In this document: piece after piece, positions 133 to 8,102 of the stretch
Layout of the letters: each line of letters starts with the position of its first letter
Numbering within the stretch: position 1 is the first letter of the stretch
Assembly (NCBI GenBank): GCA_017395725.1
Contig: JAFQOB010000315.1
Coordinates: forward strand, 1-8,502
Direction: 5' to 3'
Source: Clostridia bacterium
GTDB lineage: Bacteria; Bacillota_A; Clostridia; Oscillospirales; CAG-272
Length of the DNA: 8,502 nt
Program-made: the position numbers and the translations under genes
Notes under the pieces: generated by a model
Databases searched by the model: none
What the model was told of the DNA's origin: nothing
Seen by the model: the letters and a program-made list of their open reading frames with translations, nothing else

Positions 133-834
133 TCAATTCAAATTAATTGTAGCTATATGGGGTCTGTGGTCTGAAGCTATGATTGCAGGAATATCAGCAT
201 CAACAACTTCAATATCTCGGCTAACAAATATGTAGTCAATTTTTGTAGTAGGTACGTCAGACGGAAAGCTCAAAAGTTGACCGTTAAAATAATTTGCTGT
301 GTCAATCATTCTTTCTCTTATTGGGACTAAAACAGAGTTATCGGGTTTAACGTTAAAATCCCCCATAAGAATACACTTTTCGTCTTCCAAATGCTCTAAT
401 ATGGTATCAACAGCATTGATTTGCTCATCGGGGTGTAGCCCAAAATGCGTAATCAAAACCGTAAGACCGTTTTCGAGTTTAGCTTTTAATACACTGCGAG
501 ATTCATATCTGTGATAATTCTCGTCTCTGGGAGGGTCAGGTATCTTAATAGTTTCAACTTGAGCAAATGGAATTTTCGACAATATGCCGTTTCCGTAAGG
601 GTTTTCACCCTTAACCTTAATTGCTTCAGCGAAATACTTATATTTAATTCCGGTCAACTCCGAGAGAGCGCCAACCTGATCTTCATATGCAGAATCCGCA
701 CCGGCATTTCTCATTTCATTGAGTCCGATAATATCGGCATCACAATCAATTATAGCTTTAGCCATAATATTAAAATCAATTTTACGCTCAATGAAATTCA
801 AACAATGCTGTGTATTAAACGTCATTATTTTCAT
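133..834 (-). CDS. Endonuclease/exonuclease/phosphatase (EEP) family hydrolase
   Basis: A 233-residue metal-dependent phosphoesterase of the DNase I/exonuclease III/sphingomyelinase fold. Visible family motifs, in order: TFNTQH with Asn7; GLNEM with the metal-binding Glu40; the ESRS motif with Arg113; THFGLHP with His130; MGDFN with Asp159 and Asn161; KIDYIF with Asp200; and the terminal SDH, Ser221-Asp222-His223. All expected catalytic positions are present, so the enzyme should be active. Length is normal for a single-domain member. There is no signal peptide or membrane segment, so it is predicted cytoplasmic. AGAGG at 842-846 lies seven bases before the ATG, supporting this start; the stop is TGA. 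It follows the giant exported-protein gene by 15 bases and is probably co-transcribed with it. Substrate cannot be read from sequence: nucleic acid, phosphoinositide-like or other phosphodiesters are all possible. It lacks features that would make it a confident exonuclease III (XthA). Confidence 0.87.
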   Translation of the reverse strand: MKIMTFNTQHCLNFIERKIDFNIMAKAIIDCDADIIGLNEMRNAGADSAYEDQVGALSELTGIKYKYFAEAIKVKGENPYGNGILSKIPFAQVETIKIPDPPRDENYHRYESRSVLKAKLENGLTVLITHFGLHPDEQINAVDTILEHLEDEKCILMGDFNVKPDNSVLVPIRERMIDTANYFNGQLLSFPSDVPTTKIDYIFVSRDIEVVDADIPAIIASDHRPHIATINLN

Positions 835-849
835 AATAAAGCCTCTATT

Positions 850-3800
850 TTATTCAACGGGAAGTAACCAATCATCCTCAAGAATAGTAAGCTGATAGTT
901 TACACTGTTAGTTGAAGTTACTACAGCATAAAAATCGAAAGTACCTTTTGTTCCGGGATAACCGGTTTTATCAATTACGTCTTTGAAGTACTCATTCATA
1001 GCGAGAGGAGCGTTTGCTGCCAACGTATTTTCTCTGATACCAATAGCTCTAACACCATCAGGCTTCATTGTAGCTAAACTAGATGCAGATGAATTCATGT
1101 GTACTCTAACTATCGGTATTTTGTCAGAGTTAGTAGAGTATGTATTAAACCACATTTCCCCCTTGATTCTGACGTATGTATAAGCCTCAAGTGTGTCGGG
1201 CTTAAATAACGTTTTCATATCGTCCCAAGACTCAATTACCGTTACGCTGTCAAGATTATAATTTATAGCATTTCCGCTTGATACAATAGTTTCTTTTATG
1301 TCTGTAGGATTATTGTTTTTAGCAAACTGAAGGAATATCTTGTTTTCACGTCCGTCGCTGAATTTTCTTTGGATAACTCTTGCACAAAGACGGACCAAGT
1401 CGCCTTTAGCATATCCGTATTCGGGATACGTGCCGTATGTTACGCCCTGAACAGCAATCAACTTATCGCTTGATGCGTCTTTAAGTATCAATTCTTTGTT
1501 ATATCCCGCACCCTCATCTGCAACACCTGCAAACAAGCCCTCAACGTATACTAATTTTCCGGCTAATTCTCCGGCCGAAGCACCCGAAAGTACTTCAGCA
1601 ACAGAGAATGTATCTTCAACAGGATTAAAGAGCGATGGAGCGATAGAAGGACGCAAAACTACTGCTTTTTCGTATGTACGGACTTTGGCTAAAACTGTAT
1701 CGAATCTATAAATATGATTAGAACCGCTTACAAACTTGTGTGCTTCAAGACCGTTTTCAACGAGAGTTGCGGCTGTTGCGGTGTTATCTACAGCAACAAG
1801 CTCACCGTTTCCGAGGTATACGTAAAGTCTGTAATTTTCTCCCCAGTTACAGAAAATAAGGTCACCGGGCATAAAGTTATTCTCGAAGTAAATCGGTACA
1901 ACGTCGTCGTATGAAGAAATCTTCGTGCAGTTGTAAAGACGAGGTACTACCATTTCAGCAAGCGCTCCTTGCTGATTCAGAGCAAATACAGTTCCGTTTT
2001 CTACAAAGAGGTTGTCAATAATTGCAGCTGCTGAACCAACACCGAAAATATCGATACCGAGAGCATCTTTGTAAATAGAACTTGCAAGGGTTATAGGATT
2101 ACTGAATGTTGTTGCATTTGTTGCATATTCACGCGCCTTGTCGGCAACAGCATTAAGCTGTTCGTTTATGAAAGCACCAACAGTATTAACAGTTTCAAAA
2201 ATCTTCATACCGCCAACAGTAGTGTTCTTGCTTTCAATAAGAGAACCTACGGGAGTATTTTCTTTAACCTTTGCAGTCCAACGGATTTCAACTGTTTCAA
2301 GAGGACCAATGTTGAACTTCATAGAAACCGTTTGTCCGTCAACTGTCAAGTTCTTATTACTTGAAACGAACGTAAGATTATCCGAAAGAATATCTTCAAA
2401 TACAACGTCTGTATAAGAGTTTGCGGAATGGTTTTGGATACTTGCAACGTATGTTATTTCTCCGCCGGGGGCAACAGATGCACTCAAACCGGGAAGAATT
2501 GTCTTGTCAACGTTGATACCTGCAATCTTCATACGGTTAACAGTTTTTTCTGTAGGAGTAAGATTGTTATTCAAAGGACGGAGAATGGAGATACTGCGTA
2601 TTACGTCAGAACTGTCATTCTTCATAAGATATCTTGAACTGCTTGTATTTTCAAAAAGTTCATAAGCAAACAATCTTTGTACAGAGCCCTGAAGCTTTTC
2701 GTTAAAGTCACATCTGTCTTTATTGTATGCACTGTCGGGATTAGTAGAATTGGGTGTTTCAGATTTACCCGTACTGTGCAAGAACAAGCCGTCTCCCATA
2801 TAAAGCATCGAATGACCGGAAACCTCACTTGATCCACCGTGTCTGTATGTTAGAATATCGCCGGGTTGTAGGCTATCATATATTTCTTTCAAAGCCGCTG
2901 CTTTTTCTTCATCGGTTGTGTAATCAGTCGCCATCCAATATCCAACCACATCAGCTTTCTTGCCAACATTTTCTTTTGCATAAGCAGTATAGTTAGATGT
3001 TTTACAAGCTAATTCCGTTAGCGGTACACCGAGGATGTTCACACCGAATGCTTCGTAGTAAACGTTGTGAACGTAGGAACTGCAGTCTGTATAGAAGGTC
3101 TGCTGTTTTGTTGCTTGTTCGGGAGACCAGTTTTCACTGCGGTATCTGTTCTGGTCGTAAAGAAGCTGTGTTCCCTGACGGAAGTATGCATAAGCCACTT
3201 CTTCTACTATGTCGAAATTATCTTTAATTTCAATCGTTTTATCGCTGCCCATCAACCAATCGGAATCAAGAACAGTAATATAGAAATAAGAGCTGTTTAC
3301 AGTTGTAACAACTGCGTAGAAATCAAGGTTATCTTTCCAGTCATCTTTGTTAGTCAATCCGCCGGGAGAAGACGCATTCATAACAATCTTTTCGAAATAT
3401 GAAGTCAACGCCGTAGGTACGTTTGCATCCATCATAGATCTTCTGAAAGCAATGGTTCGTGCACCGTCGGGAGCCATTTTTGCAGCAGAGGTCGCGCTTC
3501 CGTTCATAGTCAAACGGTAGAGGTTAACAGCATCACCGGTCTTAGCGTATGAATTGCACCAAAAATCGCCGGTAAGACGAACGTAAGTATAGGGTTCCAT
3601 AGTTTCAGCATTGAAGAAACTCTTCATTTCTGTCCAGCTTGATACTAGTGTTACGCCGTCAAAAGTATAATTCATCTCGTTATTACGAGAAACAATTGTA
3701 TCGGCAATATTAGCGGGATTATTGTCAGCAAATTCAAGATAGATTTTATTTTGACCGTTGTCGGTAAAGTTTTCGCAAACAACGGTGCCGTAAAGCTGAA

Positions 3801-5814
3801 CAAGGTCACCCTTTTCATAGCCATAATCGGGGAATTTACCGTATGTAACGTTTTGAACAGCAATAAGCTTATCACTCTCAACGTCTTTAAGAATAATTTC
3901 CTGAGGAGCGTCGCTTCCCTCGTCGGAAACACCGGCAAACAAGCCTTCTACCAAAACTTTAAGACCTGTCAATTCACCGGTTTCTGCTCTTGTAAGAGTT
4001 TCGCTTACAGAGAACGCGCCGTCTTGCTCAAATTTGTTATCAAATACAACAACGTACTGGAAGAACTTATTTAACCCCATATTTGAGTGCTGCGTGTAAA
4101 ATTTATAAGCCGAGTATGTACAGTATCCGTCCTGATAACCATCCCAATAATCACAAGGGTCTGCACAAATTATAACGTCATCATAGATATAATCCGTGCC
4201 CATATCGTCAAGTCCGATAGCCGTCATAAAATGACCGCTTCCCATAGCCGTCGCTATCGCAATAGGTCTACCGGCAGAAAGGTTTGAACGTAAAAATGCC
4301 ATATAACTTTCATAAGATGTAAATTCTGGCGTTTCATATCTGGGGGAATGAGTGCCTTTTGAGCGATAACTAAGCTGTTCTAAAGCTTTTTGGTGTGTTT
4401 CAGCGTCTGTTCCCACGCCTTTTATCGAACTTCCGGAAATTCCTTCATATACGTTTAAATAAGAAAGTTCAAAATCATAATACGATTCACTAACATTATA
4501 TCCGTAATACTTCAACATAGAGCCCACAGCACAAATACCGCAAGAAGAAGCCATAGTCTGCTGTAATATAGTATAATTCGGCAACAGAACCCTCGAGCCT
4601 TCACTGCCCATATTGTAAAAATCATTTATCTTGTAGTAATTGGTATGGGTGTGGTTGTAATAACCATTTCCGGAACTAATAGTTCCATAAAGAGCACTGT
4701 CTCTTGTTCCGCCGTAAGTACCATCGGGATTCAAAGGCAAATGTAAATCATAAAGTGTCTGCTTTACAGTTGTGTCTACAGGCTGATAATCATATTCTAT
4801 GTCAATATTAGGGTCAATGATTATGTAGCTGTATTTATCGTGTTGAGTACCTGTGTTGAAATCAAGATTCCTGAACCATACGATAAAGTCAACAGCTCTT
4901 TCGGTATTAAAACCGTCCTGGAGATGGTCAAATCCGTCATTCGGGTCAGCAAAGATAATTACGTCATCTTTAAATGTTTCGGTCTCTTCACCGGTTGTAG
5001 TTAACTTAACATTTCCAAGTGTGTCATATCCTGCAACCAGCTTCCAGCCGTATCCATTTGGACCTTGGTATCTTACTAATACAAATTTGCCATCTTTTAT
5101 GCTGTCAACACACATACTCTTTGTTGCACCGTAAAGCGTAGCCAAGTTTGTATTACCTGCTGTAACAAAATCTATGCTTGTGTTATCTGTTGTATATCCG
5201 AGGTTTAAAGCTTCAATGAGCTTCATAAGACCTTCTTCTGTAGTACCGTTTCCGTAAACCGTTGTACCGTTTACTTCTTCGTACAATTTAAGAAGTTCAA
5301 GCTCGGTATACTGCTCTTTTACGTCTTCACCAACGTAGTTTAACATCATCATCAAGCAAGCAATACCGCTTGTATCCTGCATTGTCTGCTGATATGACTT
5401 AAAGTTCGGGAAAATAATTCTTTCATCGGTCGAGGTCATATTATACCAATCATTATTAATAGTATAATAATCGGAATTTTCAACGTTATATTTTCCGTTC
5501 AAAGGAGCACCTTCGCCATACGTAGCAGCATCCAAAGAACCGCCGTATGAACCGTCACTATTTGTAATCAATGACTCAGGAGCTTCAGGCGTATAATGCC
5601 CTCCTTGCTTCAAGAGAATCAACGCATCAAAAACGTCTATATCTCCGTCTCCGTCAACGTCGCCGTTTTCGGGTTCTTCACCGTTTCCGACTACGTAGTT
5701 AATAATAGCCGCAGGTTCTGCCCAAACAGTAGACGCACCAATAACCACTACCGCTAAAAGCAGTAGTACGGTAGTCAACGTGATAGAAATAAGAATTCTT
5801 TTCCTCTTTTTCAT
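850..5814 (-). CDS. Giant exported multidomain protein with paired C39-like and NlpC/P60-like domains
   Basis: A 1654-residue exported protein. Order: signal peptide (1-32), single dockerin-like repeat (51-72), degenerate C39-like peptidase (about 86-345), intact C39-like peptidase (about 360-599; Cys425, His528, Asp552), OB-like module (600-857), NlpC/P60 domain (about 868-1085; Cys911, His1001, His1013), DUF11-like domain (about 1095-1215), degenerate NlpC/P60-like domain (about 1218-1398), second OB-like module (1402-1654). There is no C-terminal membrane anchor or LPXTG motif, so it is probably released or held by the dockerin-like repeat. NlpC/P60 enzymes usually cut peptidoglycan stem peptides; C39-like enzymes are cysteine peptidases. 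A cell-wall or extracellular protein-processing role is inferred; the true substrate is unknown. I chose the ATG at 5812-5814 because GGAG (5822-5825) lies seven bases upstream and the basic n-region starts right there. An in-frame GTG at 5853 has no ribosome binding site. The EEP hydrolase gene follows after 15 bases. Confidence 0.88.
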   Translation of the reverse strand: MKKRKRILISITLTTVLLLLAVVVIGASTVWAEPAAIINYVVGNGEEPENGDVDGDGDIDVFDALILLKQGGHYTPEAPESLITNSDGSYGGSLDAATYGEGAPLNGKYNVENSDYYTINNDWYNMTSTDERIIFPNFKSYQQTMQDTSGIACLMMMLNYVGEDVKEQYTELELLKLYEEVNGTTVYGNGTTEEGLMKLIEALNLGYTTDNTSIDFVTAGNTNLATLYGATKSMCVDSIKDGKFVLVRYQGPNGYGWKLVAGYDTLGNVKLTTTGEETETFKDDVIIFADPNDGFDHLQDGFNTERAVDFIVWFRNLDFNTGTQHDKYSYIIIDPNIDIEYDYQPVDTTVKQTLYDLHLPLNPDGTYGGTRDSALYGTISSGNGYYNHTHTNYYKINDFYNMGSEGSRVLLPNYTILQQTMASSCGICAVGSMLKYYGYNVSESYYDFELSYLNVYEGISGSSIKGVGTDAETHQKALEQLSYRSKGTHSPRYETPEFTSYESYMAFLRSNLSAGRPIAIATAMGSGHFMTAIGLDDMGTDYIYDDVIICADPCDYWDGYQDGYCTYSAYKFYTQHSNMGLNKFFQYVVVFDNKFEQDGAFSVSETLTRAETGELTGLKVLVEGLFAGVSDEGSDAPQEIILKDVESDKLIAVQNVTYGKFPDYGYEKGDLVQLYGTVVCENFTDNGQNKIYLEFADNNPANIADTIVSRNNEMNYTFDGVTLVSSWTEMKSFFNAETMEPYTYVRLTGDFWCNSYAKTGDAVNLYRLTMNGSATSAAKMAPDGARTIAFRRSMMDANVPTALTSYFEKIVMNASSPGGLTNKDDWKDNLDFYAVVTTVNSSYFYITVLDSDWLMGSDKTIEIKDNFDIVEEVAYAYFRQGTQLLYDQNRYRSENWSPEQATKQQTFYTDCSSYVHNVYYEAFGVNILGVPLTELACKTSNYTAYAKENVGKKADVVGYWMATDYTTDEEKAAALKEIYDSLQPGDILTYRHGGSSEVSGHSMLYMGDGLFLHSTGKSETPNSTNPDSAYNKDRCDFNEKLQGSVQRLFAYELFENTSSSRYLMKNDSSDVIRSISILRPLNNNLTPTEKTVNRMKIAGINVDKTILPGLSASVAPGGEITYVASIQNHSANSYTDVVFEDILSDNLTFVSSNKNLTVDGQTVSMKFNIGPLETVEIRWTAKVKENTPVGSLIESKNTTVGGMKIFETVNTVGAFINEQLNAVADKAREYATNATTFSNPITLASSIYKDALGIDIFGVGSAAAIIDNLFVENGTVFALNQQGALAEMVVPRLYNCTKISSYDDVVPIYFENNFMPGDLIFCNWGENYRLYVYLGNGELVAVDNTATAATLVENGLEAHKFVSGSNHIYRFDTVLAKVRTYEKAVVLRPSIAPSLFNPVEDTFSVAEVLSGASAGELAGKLVYVEGLFAGVADEGAGYNKELILKDASSDKLIAVQGVTYGTYPEYGYAKGDLVRLCARVIQRKFSDGRENKIFLQFAKNNNPTDIKETIVSSGNAINYNLDSVTVIESWDDMKTLFKPDTLEAYTYVRIKGEMWFNTYSTNSDKIPIVRVHMNSSASSLATMKPDGVRAIGIRENTLAANAPLAMNEYFKDVIDKTGYPGTKGTFDFYAVVTSTNSVNYQLTILEDDWLLPVE
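853..1611 (-). other. OB-like beta module, copy 2
   Basis: Residues 1402-1654, at the extreme C-terminus. It aligns end to end with copy 1: FSVAEVLSG with FSVSETLTR, VYVEGLFAGVADEG with VLVEGLFAGVSDEG, SDKLIAVQGVTYG with SDKLIAVQNVTYG, AYTYVRIKGEMW with PYTYVRLTGDFW, and LTILEDDWL with ITVLDSDWL. Roughly half of the residues match by eye. The protein ends seven residues after the last strand with no anchor. Confidence 0.7.
1621..2163 (-). other. Degenerate NlpC/P60-like domain
   Basis: Residues about 1218-1398. It keeps the shape of the first NlpC/P60 copy: IYKDALGIDIFG against VYYEAFGVNILG, FMPGDLIF against LQPGDILT, and YVYLGNGELVA against MLYMGDGLFLH. The catalytic positions are replaced: Pro1240 (codon 2095-2097) for Cys, Arg1329 (1828-1830) for the first His and Ala1341 (1792-1794) for the second. 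The Arg-Ala spacing of 12 equals the His-His spacing in the intact copy. It should be non-catalytic. Confidence 0.68.
2170..2532 (-). other. DUF11-like/CARDB-like beta-sandwich domain
   Basis: Residues about 1095-1215. The run SVAPGGEITYVASIQNHSA, then VVFEDILSDNLTFVSSN, then FNIGPLETVEIRWTAKV, matches the DUF11 pattern found in bacterial surface proteins (G..v.Y.....N......v.D.l......fvs). It probably acts as a spacer between the two NlpC/P60-like domains. Confidence 0.7.
2560..3213 (-). other. Intact NlpC/P60 domain
   Basis: Residues about 868-1085. FYTDCSSYVHNVYYEAFG has the nucleophile Cys911 in the family's DCSS/DCSG setting. LQPGDILTY is the usual PGD motif, GHSMLYMGDG supplies His1001, and LFLHSTG supplies His1013, twelve residues later as expected for the third polar residue. 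All three catalytic positions are present. It lies between OB-like module 1 and the DUF11-like domain. Confidence 0.8.
3244..4017 (-). other. OB-like beta module, copy 1
   Basis: Residues 600-857. The first half (VLVEGLFAGVSDEG, then IILKDVESDKLIAVQ, then YGYEKGDLVQLYGTV) has the strand pattern of an OB fold of the kind found in secreted nucleases and other exported proteins. The second half (YTYVRLTGDFW to FYITVLDSDWL) looks like another small beta-barrel. The whole unit recurs at the C-terminus. OB assignment is by strand pattern and the VxG..GDLV motif, not by a profile search. Confidence 0.55.
4018..4737 (-). other. Intact C39/papain-like peptidase domain (copy 2)
   Basis: Residues about 360-599. 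The nucleophile motif QQTMASSCGICAVGSMLKYY has Cys425 at the start of a helix, preceded by Gln residues that could form the oxyanion hole. GSGHFMTAIG supplies His528, and ICADPCD supplies Asp552. This Q...C...H...D order is that of C39-type and related papain-fold peptidases. No transporter transmembrane or ATPase domains follow, so it is not a bacteriocin exporter peptidase but a free extracellular one. Confidence 0.72.
4780..5559 (-). other. Degenerate C39/papain-like peptidase domain (copy 1)
   Basis: Residues about 86-345. It aligns along its whole length with the following copy: DGSYGG and DGTYGG at the start, YTINNDWYNM with YKINDFYNM, QQTMQDTSGIAC with QQTMASSCGIC, and DDVIIFADPND with DDVIICADPCD. 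At the nucleophile position it has Ser149 (codon 5368-5370) in place of Cys, and at the histidine position Trp257 (codon 5044-5046). Asp290 is kept. The fold therefore looks preserved but cysteine-peptidase chemistry is lost. Confidence 0.72.
5599..5664 (-). other. Single dockerin-like calcium-binding repeat at the N-terminus
   Basis: Residues 51-72 begin GDVDGDGDIDVFDA, with acidic residues at loop positions 1, 3, 5, 7, 9 and 12 (Asp52, 54, 56, 58, 60, 63), followed by the helix LILLKQGG. This matches one half of a type I dockerin. Known dockerins normally have two such repeats, usually at the C-terminus; here there is one, right after the signal peptide. It may be a calcium-binding linker rather than a cohesin-binding dockerin. 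Confidence 0.75.
5719..5814 (-). other. Signal peptide of the giant protein
   Basis: Residues 1-32: a basic start (KKRKR), a hydrophobic core rich in Leu, Val and Ile (residues 7-25), and a polar end GASTVWA with Val at -3 and Ala at -1 before Glu33. This is a classical Sec/type I signal peptidase pattern. There is no lipobox cysteine, so it is not a lipoprotein. Confidence 0.85.
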
Positions 5815-6242: not shown

Positions 6243-8102
6243 TTATTGTTTTGATGCTCGAAGCAGCTCGGGCAAAGACAGTATATTATTGGTATCCATT
6301 GCTTGATAGTCGCGGAACTTCCCTGTTACCGCAGCCTCTTTAGCTGACAATACCTCTAAATCATTCCAAGAAACCAAACAAGCGTGTGTACGGTCCTTCA
6401 TATTTTTAGCAATACGCAAATTCGATGTTCCATATACTGCAATTTGCTCTTTATAAATATTAGATCGAAGAATAAATTCTTCATCTGTCATAGGACTAAA
6501 TCCCATGCAATAGTGGAAGGCACACCACCTTAGATGCTCGGTTTTACTTAGATTCTCTTTTTGCGTATCCGTAAGTGCCCAATCACCTGAACAAACCTGA
6601 GCTTCCGTTTTGTTAGCAGCACGCAAAACTGCTGGCACAAAATCAGCAAAAGCCCGACAGCTCTGACGACTGAAATAATCACATTCCATCCAATTTTGTA
6701 ACGGGGTATTATCACTTCCGCTTTGATAACTGTGATTTACGATCATTGCCATATTGTCAAGCTGTTCACCGTCAATTAAATCCGCACGGTAAATATTGTA
6801 TGTAACAGTTTCAGAGCTATCCAAAGAATAAGCTTCTACGCCGTTACGAGAGCAAATAAACACGGGGACTTCGCGGTTATAACGACGAAAATAATCCATT
6901 AAATCAGTTGCTATTTCATGATTAAGCTCAGTGTTTCCCACACAAACAACAACGTATTTCAGCGTATCACGGTGTTTGGCATGATAGTCATACATTTCGC
7001 GGCTTCTTGCATCATAACCGTAAAAAGATAAATCGTAATTACTGCACAAGGAACTCAGTTGATCGGCAAAACGACCGTCAGTAGAATTATAGTCTTTCGC
7101 AAAGACAGACAAATGAAAATCACTGCCCTCAAATTGCGCATTCATAACGATGTTTTTTAAAACCGCCTGACCAACCTGTCCGAAGCCAATAACCAATGCA
7201 TCAAAATTTTCAGTCGCTTTACAATCACTGTCAAAGGAAACGTAATCACAGGGCGGATATTTCATCATAAGCAAGCGTGCTGCCATCTGCGGTTCATTAA
7301 TTGCATTGACAAATCCATATCCGTATTTTTCAGACGTGCATTGAAGCCGGCTGACTGCACTCTCCTCTTGCTCAAGGATAACAAGACGAAGAACTTCCGA
7401 AGGTGTTTTAATTAATTCAAGAGAATTAAGAAGCTTTTTTGCATATTTTATATTATCGATTGAATTTTTTGAAACAGCATAAAGAGTAAGTGTTCGTCTT
7501 TTGGCAGAAAAGCCTATGCTTCTCAAAAATTTTCTATCAGCGCTTAGTGCATGGACATCTGTTTTTATCACTCCGCCAATAGTTGCAATAGTTTCAACAG
7601 AAGTTGCCTTTTCTGCCACAAAAACAATAATACCTTTCTTTTTTTGCGCAAGGTCGCGTCCTAAAGCCAAAGTATCGTCGTTGATTCCATATATAACGTT
7701 AATTCTTCCGCGACGAACCAAAATAAGACGTAACTTTTTCAGTGTTTCTCTTCCTATTGTGGTTATAATGGCACTTGCGGTAGCGTACAAGGCTGCCAAA
7801 CGAATAAACTCAAAAAATATTCTCATCCATACTGTCTGCATTATGGGAACAGAAGCTATAGAACTGAATTCATTTCCCCCGACAAAAGAGCTGCAAACAG
7901 CAAGCAGCGCTTTTAGAGATGCTAATATAAGATTGTCGGTAATCACAGCATAACCGTATCCGTAAATAAAAAAGCCGCTGATTCCGGAAAAGGCTAATGC
8001 CCCTACCGTAATTTTTTTCGATATACTCGGTTTCACAGACAACAACAAAACCAAACCAAGAAACAAAATCGCTGTAATCAATATAGAAATAACGTAGGTC
8101 AT
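6243..8102 (-). CDS. Membrane protein with TrkA-N-like Rossmann domains and C-terminal RyR-like domain
   Basis: A 619-residue membrane protein. Hydrophobic segments lie at about 3-22, 31-54 and 92-116, with a further semi-hydrophobic stretch at 57-76 (SSFVGG) that might be re-entrant. Two Rossmann-like regions follow: the first (about 133-290) has a weakened glycine motif (YGIND, 138-142); the second (about 300-430) has a full GFGQVG (306-311). The C-terminus (about 515-610) matches the RyR domain pattern: EHLRW (522-526), GF (534-535), then D570..H573.CLVSWNDL and a late DYQ. This layout, membrane helices plus TrkA-N-like regulatory domains plus RyR, suggests an ion channel or membrane sensor gated by a nucleotide such as NAD(H); that role is inference. 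RyR domains in bacteria have been discussed in nucleotide-signalling and conflict systems. CGGAG (8112-8116) lies nine bases before the ATG, supporting the start. It follows the small zinc-ribbon gene by 29 bases and ends at a strong terminator. Confidence 0.8.
   Translation of the reverse strand: MTYVISILITAILFLGLVLLLSVKPSISKKITVGALAFSGISGFFIYGYGYAVITDNLILASLKALLAVCSSFVGGNEFSSIASVPIMQTVWMRIFFEFIRLAALYATASAIITTIGRETLKKLRLILVRRGRINVIYGINDDTLALGRDLAQKKKGIIVFVAEKATSVETIATIGGVIKTDVHALSADRKFLRSIGFSAKRRTLTLYAVSKNSIDNIKYAKKLLNSLELIKTPSEVLRLVILEQEESAVSRLQCTSEKYGYGFVNAINEPQMAARLLMMKYPPCDYVSFDSDCKATENFDALVIGFGQVGQAVLKNIVMNAQFEGSDFHLSVFAKDYNSTDGRFADQLSSLCSNYDLSFYGYDARSREMYDYHAKHRDTLKYVVVCVGNTELNHEIATDLMDYFRRYNREVPVFICSRNGVEAYSLDSSETVTYNIYRADLIDGEQLDNMAMIVNHSYQSGSDNTPLQNWMECDYFSRQSCRAFADFVPAVLRAANKTEAQVCSGDWALTDTQKENLSKTEHLRWCAFHYCMGFSPMTDEEFILRSNIYKEQIAVYGTSNLRIAKNMKDRTHACLVSWNDLEVLSAKEAAVTGKFRDYQAMDTNNILSLPELLRASKQ

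Follow-up and report, generated by a model that had tools for sequence, protein, structure and literature searches.

The 8,502-nucleotide stretch analysed here (the window) is positions 1 to 8,502 of contig JAFQOB010000315.1, from the assembly of a gut-dwelling Clostridia bacterium (GCA_017395725.1; Oscillospirales, CAG-272). Its minus strand carries a gene for a protein of 1654 residues in which two cysteine-peptidase families, C39 and NlpC/P60, each occur as a pair with one catalytically intact (live) and one degenerate (dead) copy (Table 1). A sequence-only reading of the DNA had proposed this arrangement and it is borne out by the comparisons and residue counts below; every residue which that reading named is the letter it gave at that position. 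The C39 pair runs dead-live (C39a, C39b), and the NlpC/P60 pair runs live-dead (N1, N2). Pfam families above cut-off in the whole protein are NLPC_P60, Peptidase_C39, Peptidase_C39_2 and DUF11, and no transporter domain is among the matches. The two linker modules, which that reading called OB-like, have no Pfam match at an expectation value (E) up to 10, and a structure search with residues 609-1398 returned a match list filled by DUF11. To judge from its sequence, the protein is probably secreted or exported. By a crude rule, a hydrophobic N-terminus is present in 116/120 C39-pair proteins and 96/102 NlpC-pair proteins.

Table 1. Layout of the gene for the 1654-residue protein, in positions of the window.
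Feature	Residues	Positions	Strand	Basis
Whole gene (stop codon 850-852)	1-1654	850..5814	minus	
Positively charged start, then hydrophobic stretch: signal peptide or membrane anchor	1-33	5716..5814	minus	read by eye
Single calcium-type loop, half-dockerin-like	50-71	5602..5667	minus	Dockerin_1 below cut-off; pattern
C39a, dead C39 copy	79-357	4744..5580	minus	alignment, model, profile-profile
Codon at the place of the catalytic Cys	Ser149	5368..5370	minus	
Lost catalytic His site	Tyr255-Gly256	5047..5052	minus	alignment with single-domain relatives
C39b, live C39 copy	358-600	4015..4743	minus	Pfam above cut-off, alignment, model
Catalytic codon	Cys425	4540..4542	minus	
Catalytic codon	His528	4231..4233	minus	
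Catalytic codon	Asp552	4159..4161	minus	
First linker module	609-868	3211..3990	minus	49% identical to second linker module
N1, live NlpC/P60 copy	869-1095	2530..3210	minus	Pfam NLPC_P60 37.5 bits, cut-off 23
Catalytic codon	Cys911	3082..3084	minus	
Catalytic codon	His1001	2812..2814	minus	
Catalytic codon	His1013	2776..2778	minus	
DUF11, pilin/adhesin-like Ig domain between N1 and N2	1096-1195	2230..2529	minus	
N2, dead NlpC/P60-like copy	1196-1398	1621..2229	minus	alignment, model, profile-profile
Codon at the place of the catalytic Cys	Pro1240	2095..2097	minus	
Codon at the place of the first His	Arg1329	1828..1830	minus	
Codon at the place of the second His	Ala1341	1792..1794	minus	
Second linker module	1399-1654	853..1620	minus	

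C39a and C39b align at 33% identity over 239 columns in BLASTP (E 4e-34) and at E 4.3e-58 in a profile-profile comparison. When the whole protein is scanned, C39b matches Peptidase_C39 (29.9 bits, cut-off 22; best stretch 414-444) and Peptidase_C39_2 (29.6 bits, cut-off 24; best stretch 416-548), and it has the full C39 residue set of Cys425, His528, Asp552 and the oxyanion residue Gln419. It is quite improbable that C39b is no ordinary peptidase but, like phytochelatin-synthase-like proteins, an amide hydrolase or transferase of related papain fold. C39a, compared with Pfam on its own, scores 18.6 bits for Peptidase_C39, under the cut-off of 22, and lacks the catalytic Cys and His (Ser149; Tyr255/Gly256). 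It is a C39 relative by fold and sequence but, going by its catalytic residues, not an enzyme.

The same division runs through 127 C39 pairs, namely the query, P0003-P0007, P0012 and 120 of the 173 matches to a search with the C39 pair. Position 149 of C39a is Ser in 122, Gly in 4, Asp in 1 and never Cys. In C39b, position 425 is Cys in 126 and Ser in 1, position 528 is His in 126 and Gln in 1, both residues being kept together in 126/127 pairs, and position 552 is Asp in 125, Asn in 1 and a gap in 1. Gln143 of C39a and Gln419 of C39b, the oxyanion glutamines of this family, are each found in 127/127. The remaining surroundings of the former active site in C39a include Trp257 (114/127) and His297 (127/127). 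The Asp site of the dead copy, position 290, is Glu in 79, Asp in 35 and Asn in 13. Trp257 had been read as the replacement of the catalytic His and is rejected in that role. Single-domain C39 relatives read GHWQVIIGYD where C39a reads YGWKLVAGYD, so that Trp257 is the residue after the His (Phe529 in C39b; the Trp of GHW in the single-domain relatives) and the His site is 255/256, where C39a looks to have a one-residue insertion. Position 255 is Tyr in 64, Phe in 38, Asn in 14 and His in 7 of the pairs; the seven His255 relatives read GHGW there, each with a residue other than Cys at 149.

N1 and N2 give no BLASTP match to each other. Their profiles nevertheless align at E 2.1e-9 (probability 96%), in a register that sets Cys911 against Pro1240, His1001 against Arg1329 and His1013 against Ala1341, whereas four control pairings (N2-C39b, N2-C39a, N1-C39b and N2-DUF11) range from E 0.007 to 0.41 with probabilities of at most 5.4%. 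N1 has the Cys-His-His triad as well as its Pfam match; N2 alone reaches 12.7 bits for NLPC_P60, under the cut-off of 23, and has Pro1240, Arg1329 and Ala1341 in place of the Cys-His-polar triad. Among 109 relatives, with P0012 (lacking the NlpC part) and P0232 (coverage 11%) set aside, Cys911, His1001 and His1013 occur together in 108, the exception being the distant match P0231. In N2, position 1240 is Pro in 87 and never Cys (2 gaps), position 1329 is never His, and position 1341 is His in P0179 only. A search of solved structures with the NlpC alignment found MepS on N1 (E 4.6e-7) and, weakly, RipA at the N2 part (E 0.07); searching the solved structures by sequence with the query itself gave nothing firm (best 2hbw, E 0.0057). 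Homologues had been named by the sequence-only reading as a check on the losses, and by the Cys position the same copy is the lost one in 127/127 C39 and 109/109 NlpC pairs.

Most relatives carry one pair only. The first homologue search returned 17 proteins, of which P0002, 100% identical to the query, is left out of all counts. Both modules are present in P0003-P0007, with a single linker module in P0006 and P0007 by domain mapping; P0012 has the C39 pair and no NlpC module, and P0008-P0011 and P0013-P0018 have the NlpC module and no C39 part. Matches to the C39 pair measure 454 to 758 residues among the 120 listed, and the NlpC module as query brought 103 matches, 23 of them of just 539 to 578 residues. 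Since C39-pair and NlpC-module proteins are mostly found separately, the window protein is, on this comparison, the product of joining two modules, each an enzyme with its dead twin. In genome G002 the two kinds lie apart, with a C39 pair on one contig and frames for the NlpC module on three others. The longest contigs of P0134 (C39 pair) and P0228 (NlpC pair) are both of 43,554 bases, so the two are perhaps unfused neighbours, although the coincidence may be chance.

Of the genomes searched, only G001 and G002 yielded a C39 pair. It occurs in 1/197 genomes of a sample of the order, where 10 others match C39 domains (the proteins read from those 10 comprise nine single-domain proteins and one of two domains), and in 1/200 genomes of a sample of the family, which adds three partial C39 matches; no new pair appeared in 146 and 148 relatives' genomes. 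The genome sets overlap, and at most 5 to 9 candidates were scored per genome, so that misses are possible. The NlpC alignment matches 73/197 genomes, most matches being short or to DUF11 alone, and four at E<1e-50 (G001, G155, G188 and G046). The two named records come from Clostridia of goat rectum and sheep colon. L001 and P0005 do not count as independent, since the L001 gene product matches P0005 at 1651/1652 positions.

The loss of catalytic residues in C39a is old. In an unrooted tree of 99 domain copies, 11 of them of single-domain type and the others drawn from 44 of the 127 pairs, the dead C39 copies, the live ones and those of single-domain type form separate clades, with support of 0.998, 0.957 and 0.999 in that order, and the separation of dead from live copies places the loss before the sampled family. 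L007, a protein of about 880 residues in which both C39 domains are live and the N-terminus shows, by eye, S-layer-homology-like repeats, was considered as a two-live-copy ancestor and rejected, as its copies group with the single-domain relatives in this unrooted tree. It is best read as a C39 doubling in its own right, which left both copies live and lies outside the dead-live family. Against the L001 gene (81% identity), the ratio of nonsynonymous to synonymous substitution (dN/dS) is 0.083 for C39a, 0.119 for C39b, 0.053 for N1 and 0.041 for N2, values made rough by a dS of 0.9 to 3.1. Because the dead copy is the same one in nearly all the relatives compared, the dead copies look as if they had been retained as parts, not left behind as wreckage. 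The earlier view of them as binding or regulatory modules is upheld in part, namely that they are kept and not decaying, on family counts, the old split and dN/dS.

Structure prediction, a second check put forward by that reading, gave confident models of the C39 pair and the NlpC module, with predicted local distance difference test (pLDDT) scores of 94.7 and 92.8 and predicted template modelling (pTM) scores of 0.92 and 0.91. The underlying alignments held 107 of the 120 listed C39 relatives and 69 NlpC relatives. The sequence of DUF11 (residues 1096-1212, window 2179-2529) resembles pilin D2 domains with an internal Lys-Asn cross-link. The residues corresponding to that cross-link are found in 100/109 (Lys1104), 103/109 (Asp/Glu1141) and 74/109 (Asn1210) relatives, and all three together in 65/109, the query among them; the TIGR04226 match to the region is below its cut-off. 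DUF11 may be a stapled spacer between N1 and N2.

These observations are best explained as follows. By fusion of two older enzyme-plus-pseudoenzyme modules, a double hydrolase would have arisen that is exported and probably held at the surface. Each module would have one papain-like domain that cuts, C39b most likely a peptide or protein, and N1 most likely peptidoglycan stem peptides, like characterised NlpC/P60 enzymes. The degenerate twin, C39a or N2, would be the fixed half of a rigid unit and help to hold or shape the substrate site. In its favour stand the pairing and its fixed order, the loss in one and the same copy, Gln143 in every C39a, a C39a as conserved as C39b, the low dN/dS, the separate clades of dead and live C39 copies, the confident models, the hydrophobic N-termini and the precedent of HlyB, whose degenerate C39 domain binds cargo. 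We consider this reading evenly poised between right and wrong.

Several points weigh against it. Neither activity nor ligand nor interface was seen, and both catalysis and the role of the twins are what we infer; rigidity rests on pTM, and the dN/dS values are rough as stated. P0107, the sole exception among the C39 pairs, has lost the Cys from both copies, a wholly dead pair, and at least this relative manages without C39 catalysis. The C39-like domain of HlyB, an ATP-binding cassette (ABC) transporter of type 1 secretion, binds on the face opposite the enzyme groove (PMC8277102), so that a pocket may be kept without being where binding takes place. Finally, the two dead copies are not alike. 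Mean pairwise identity is 0.51 for C39a (41/260 columns at 95% or more), 0.50 for C39b (38/235) and 0.46 for N1 (23/217); for N2 it is 0.32 (6/190), and its former active site is variable, which fits a mere structural part. By these alignments what lay around the former active site is retained in C39a, and little beyond the fold is retained in N2. Were the dead copies to act as structural spacers or as halves that stabilise the fold, taking no part in substrate binding or in control, this would account for N2, which retains only fold residues; it would not account for the strictness of Gln143, Ser149, Trp257 and His297 in C39a, and we hold this explanation unlikely. It is barely credible that the dead copies are functionless duplicates in decay: the low conservation of N2 favours it and nothing else was found to, while a loss common to every aligned relative, the old split and the low dN/dS oppose it, and the family counts contradict it.

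A regulatory role is a further alternative. The dead copies might inhibit or gate the live ones until calcium, ligand or cleavage frees them, which would suit the fixed order in which one dead twin adjoins each live domain. After the catalytic Asp comes an acidic stretch, D-x-x-D-x-x-Q-D, that is nearly invariant at residues 290-301 of C39a and 552-563 of C39b and occurs in single-domain relatives also; it is possibly a metal site. This stretch and the calcium-type loop near the N-terminus could be switches. By a home-made pattern the loop is present in 5/7 C39-bearing long proteins (P0001 and P0003-P0006, not P0007 or P0012) and in 0/120 C39-pair and 0/102 NlpC-pair proteins, and its absence from the separate pairs shows that it is not needed for pairing. 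That absence and the lack of a visible interface count against gating, which we regard as distinctly unlikely. A dockerin has two calcium loops. The dockerin-like repeat of the sequence-only reading reduces to one such loop, with Dockerin_1 at 16.5 bits (cut-off 22.9), and a cellulosomal dockerin protein is not supported, the profile being below cut-off and the loop single.

A broader picture is conceivable, which we put forward as possible but rather unlikely. Gut Clostridia would hold two unrelated enzyme-pseudoenzyme tandem families in which the dead domain gives part of the substrate site, and some lineages would have fused both into an exported machine cutting wall peptide and protein at the same place. 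The 127 and 109 relatives offer a clean natural series for testing of what use a dead domain is to a live one, and a function could be named for exported proteins now labelled 'hypothetical protein' or 'C39 family peptidase'.

The surroundings of the gene add some observations. Just downstream on the minus strand (window 133-834) lies an endonuclease/exonuclease/phosphatase-family gene (Pfam 66.5 bits), followed by a near-perfect inverted repeat (74-125; 25-nt arms, 88%, 2-nt loop) that is perhaps a terminator for the minus-strand genes. A 619-residue protein at 6243-8102, also on the minus strand, has hydrophobic N-terminal segments by eye and a weak TrkA_N-type trace, with no Pfam match above cut-off. 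The scanned neighbours in L001 (9 open reading frames) and L002 (10) have no common theme beyond a SpoIID-domain gene in both. Three NlpC-module relatives (P0201, P0206 and P0216) carry PF00395, presumably the S-layer homology domain, which would hold them on the cell surface. Anti-phage defence was rejected, with no PADLOC match at E up to 0.1, as were viral relatives, for which one pattern match and no encoded relative were found; the best structural match in BFVD is a phage endolysin, covering about one domain (200 columns).

The architecture had been called unrecognised, and this stands in part: neither pair was found described when 5.39 million open papers were searched for tandem or inactive C39 domains and for inactive NlpC domains (subscription papers fell mostly outside), nor did the title of entry 22oc lead to any paper. 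C39 domains that have degenerated and NlpC repeats lacking the Cys are already known in print. In the rumen bacterium Ruminococcus flavefaciens, RflaF_05439 has tandem NlpC/P60 modules that are 45% identical; the first of them carries Ser at the catalytic Cys position in strain 17, with the His kept, and a C-terminal X-dockerin follows; for strain FD-1 no such loss is reported (PMC3573020). Unlike in N1/N2, the loss there affects the first copy of one strain and is not family-wide. Bacillus subtilis YwtD has three NlpC/P60 copies, of which the second alone is functional according to the same paper (PMC3573020), and differs from the window protein in having no C39 part. M16 metallopeptidases typically have their active-site residues in one half and need both halves (PMC12731061); they offer a works-like analogy, their fold and chemistry being unrelated.

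Closer in fold are the single-domain C39 proteins of the same order (L005, L006 and L008-L014; Pfam PF03412 / PF13529), which belong to the same fold family. Proteins of this type keep Cys, His and Asp in 11/11 aligned copies, two of them from L007. They differ from the window protein in that no dead twin accompanies their one domain (L007 has two, both live) and in forming a clade of their own. The C39-like domain of HlyB has lost its catalytic Cys (Tyr in its place) and binds and tethers cargo; like C39a it has the C39 fold with the Cys replaced and the domain kept, and unlike C39a it is part of an ABC transporter and has no live C39 partner next to it (PMC8277102). HlyB is the nearest precedent for a dead C39 domain that has been kept.
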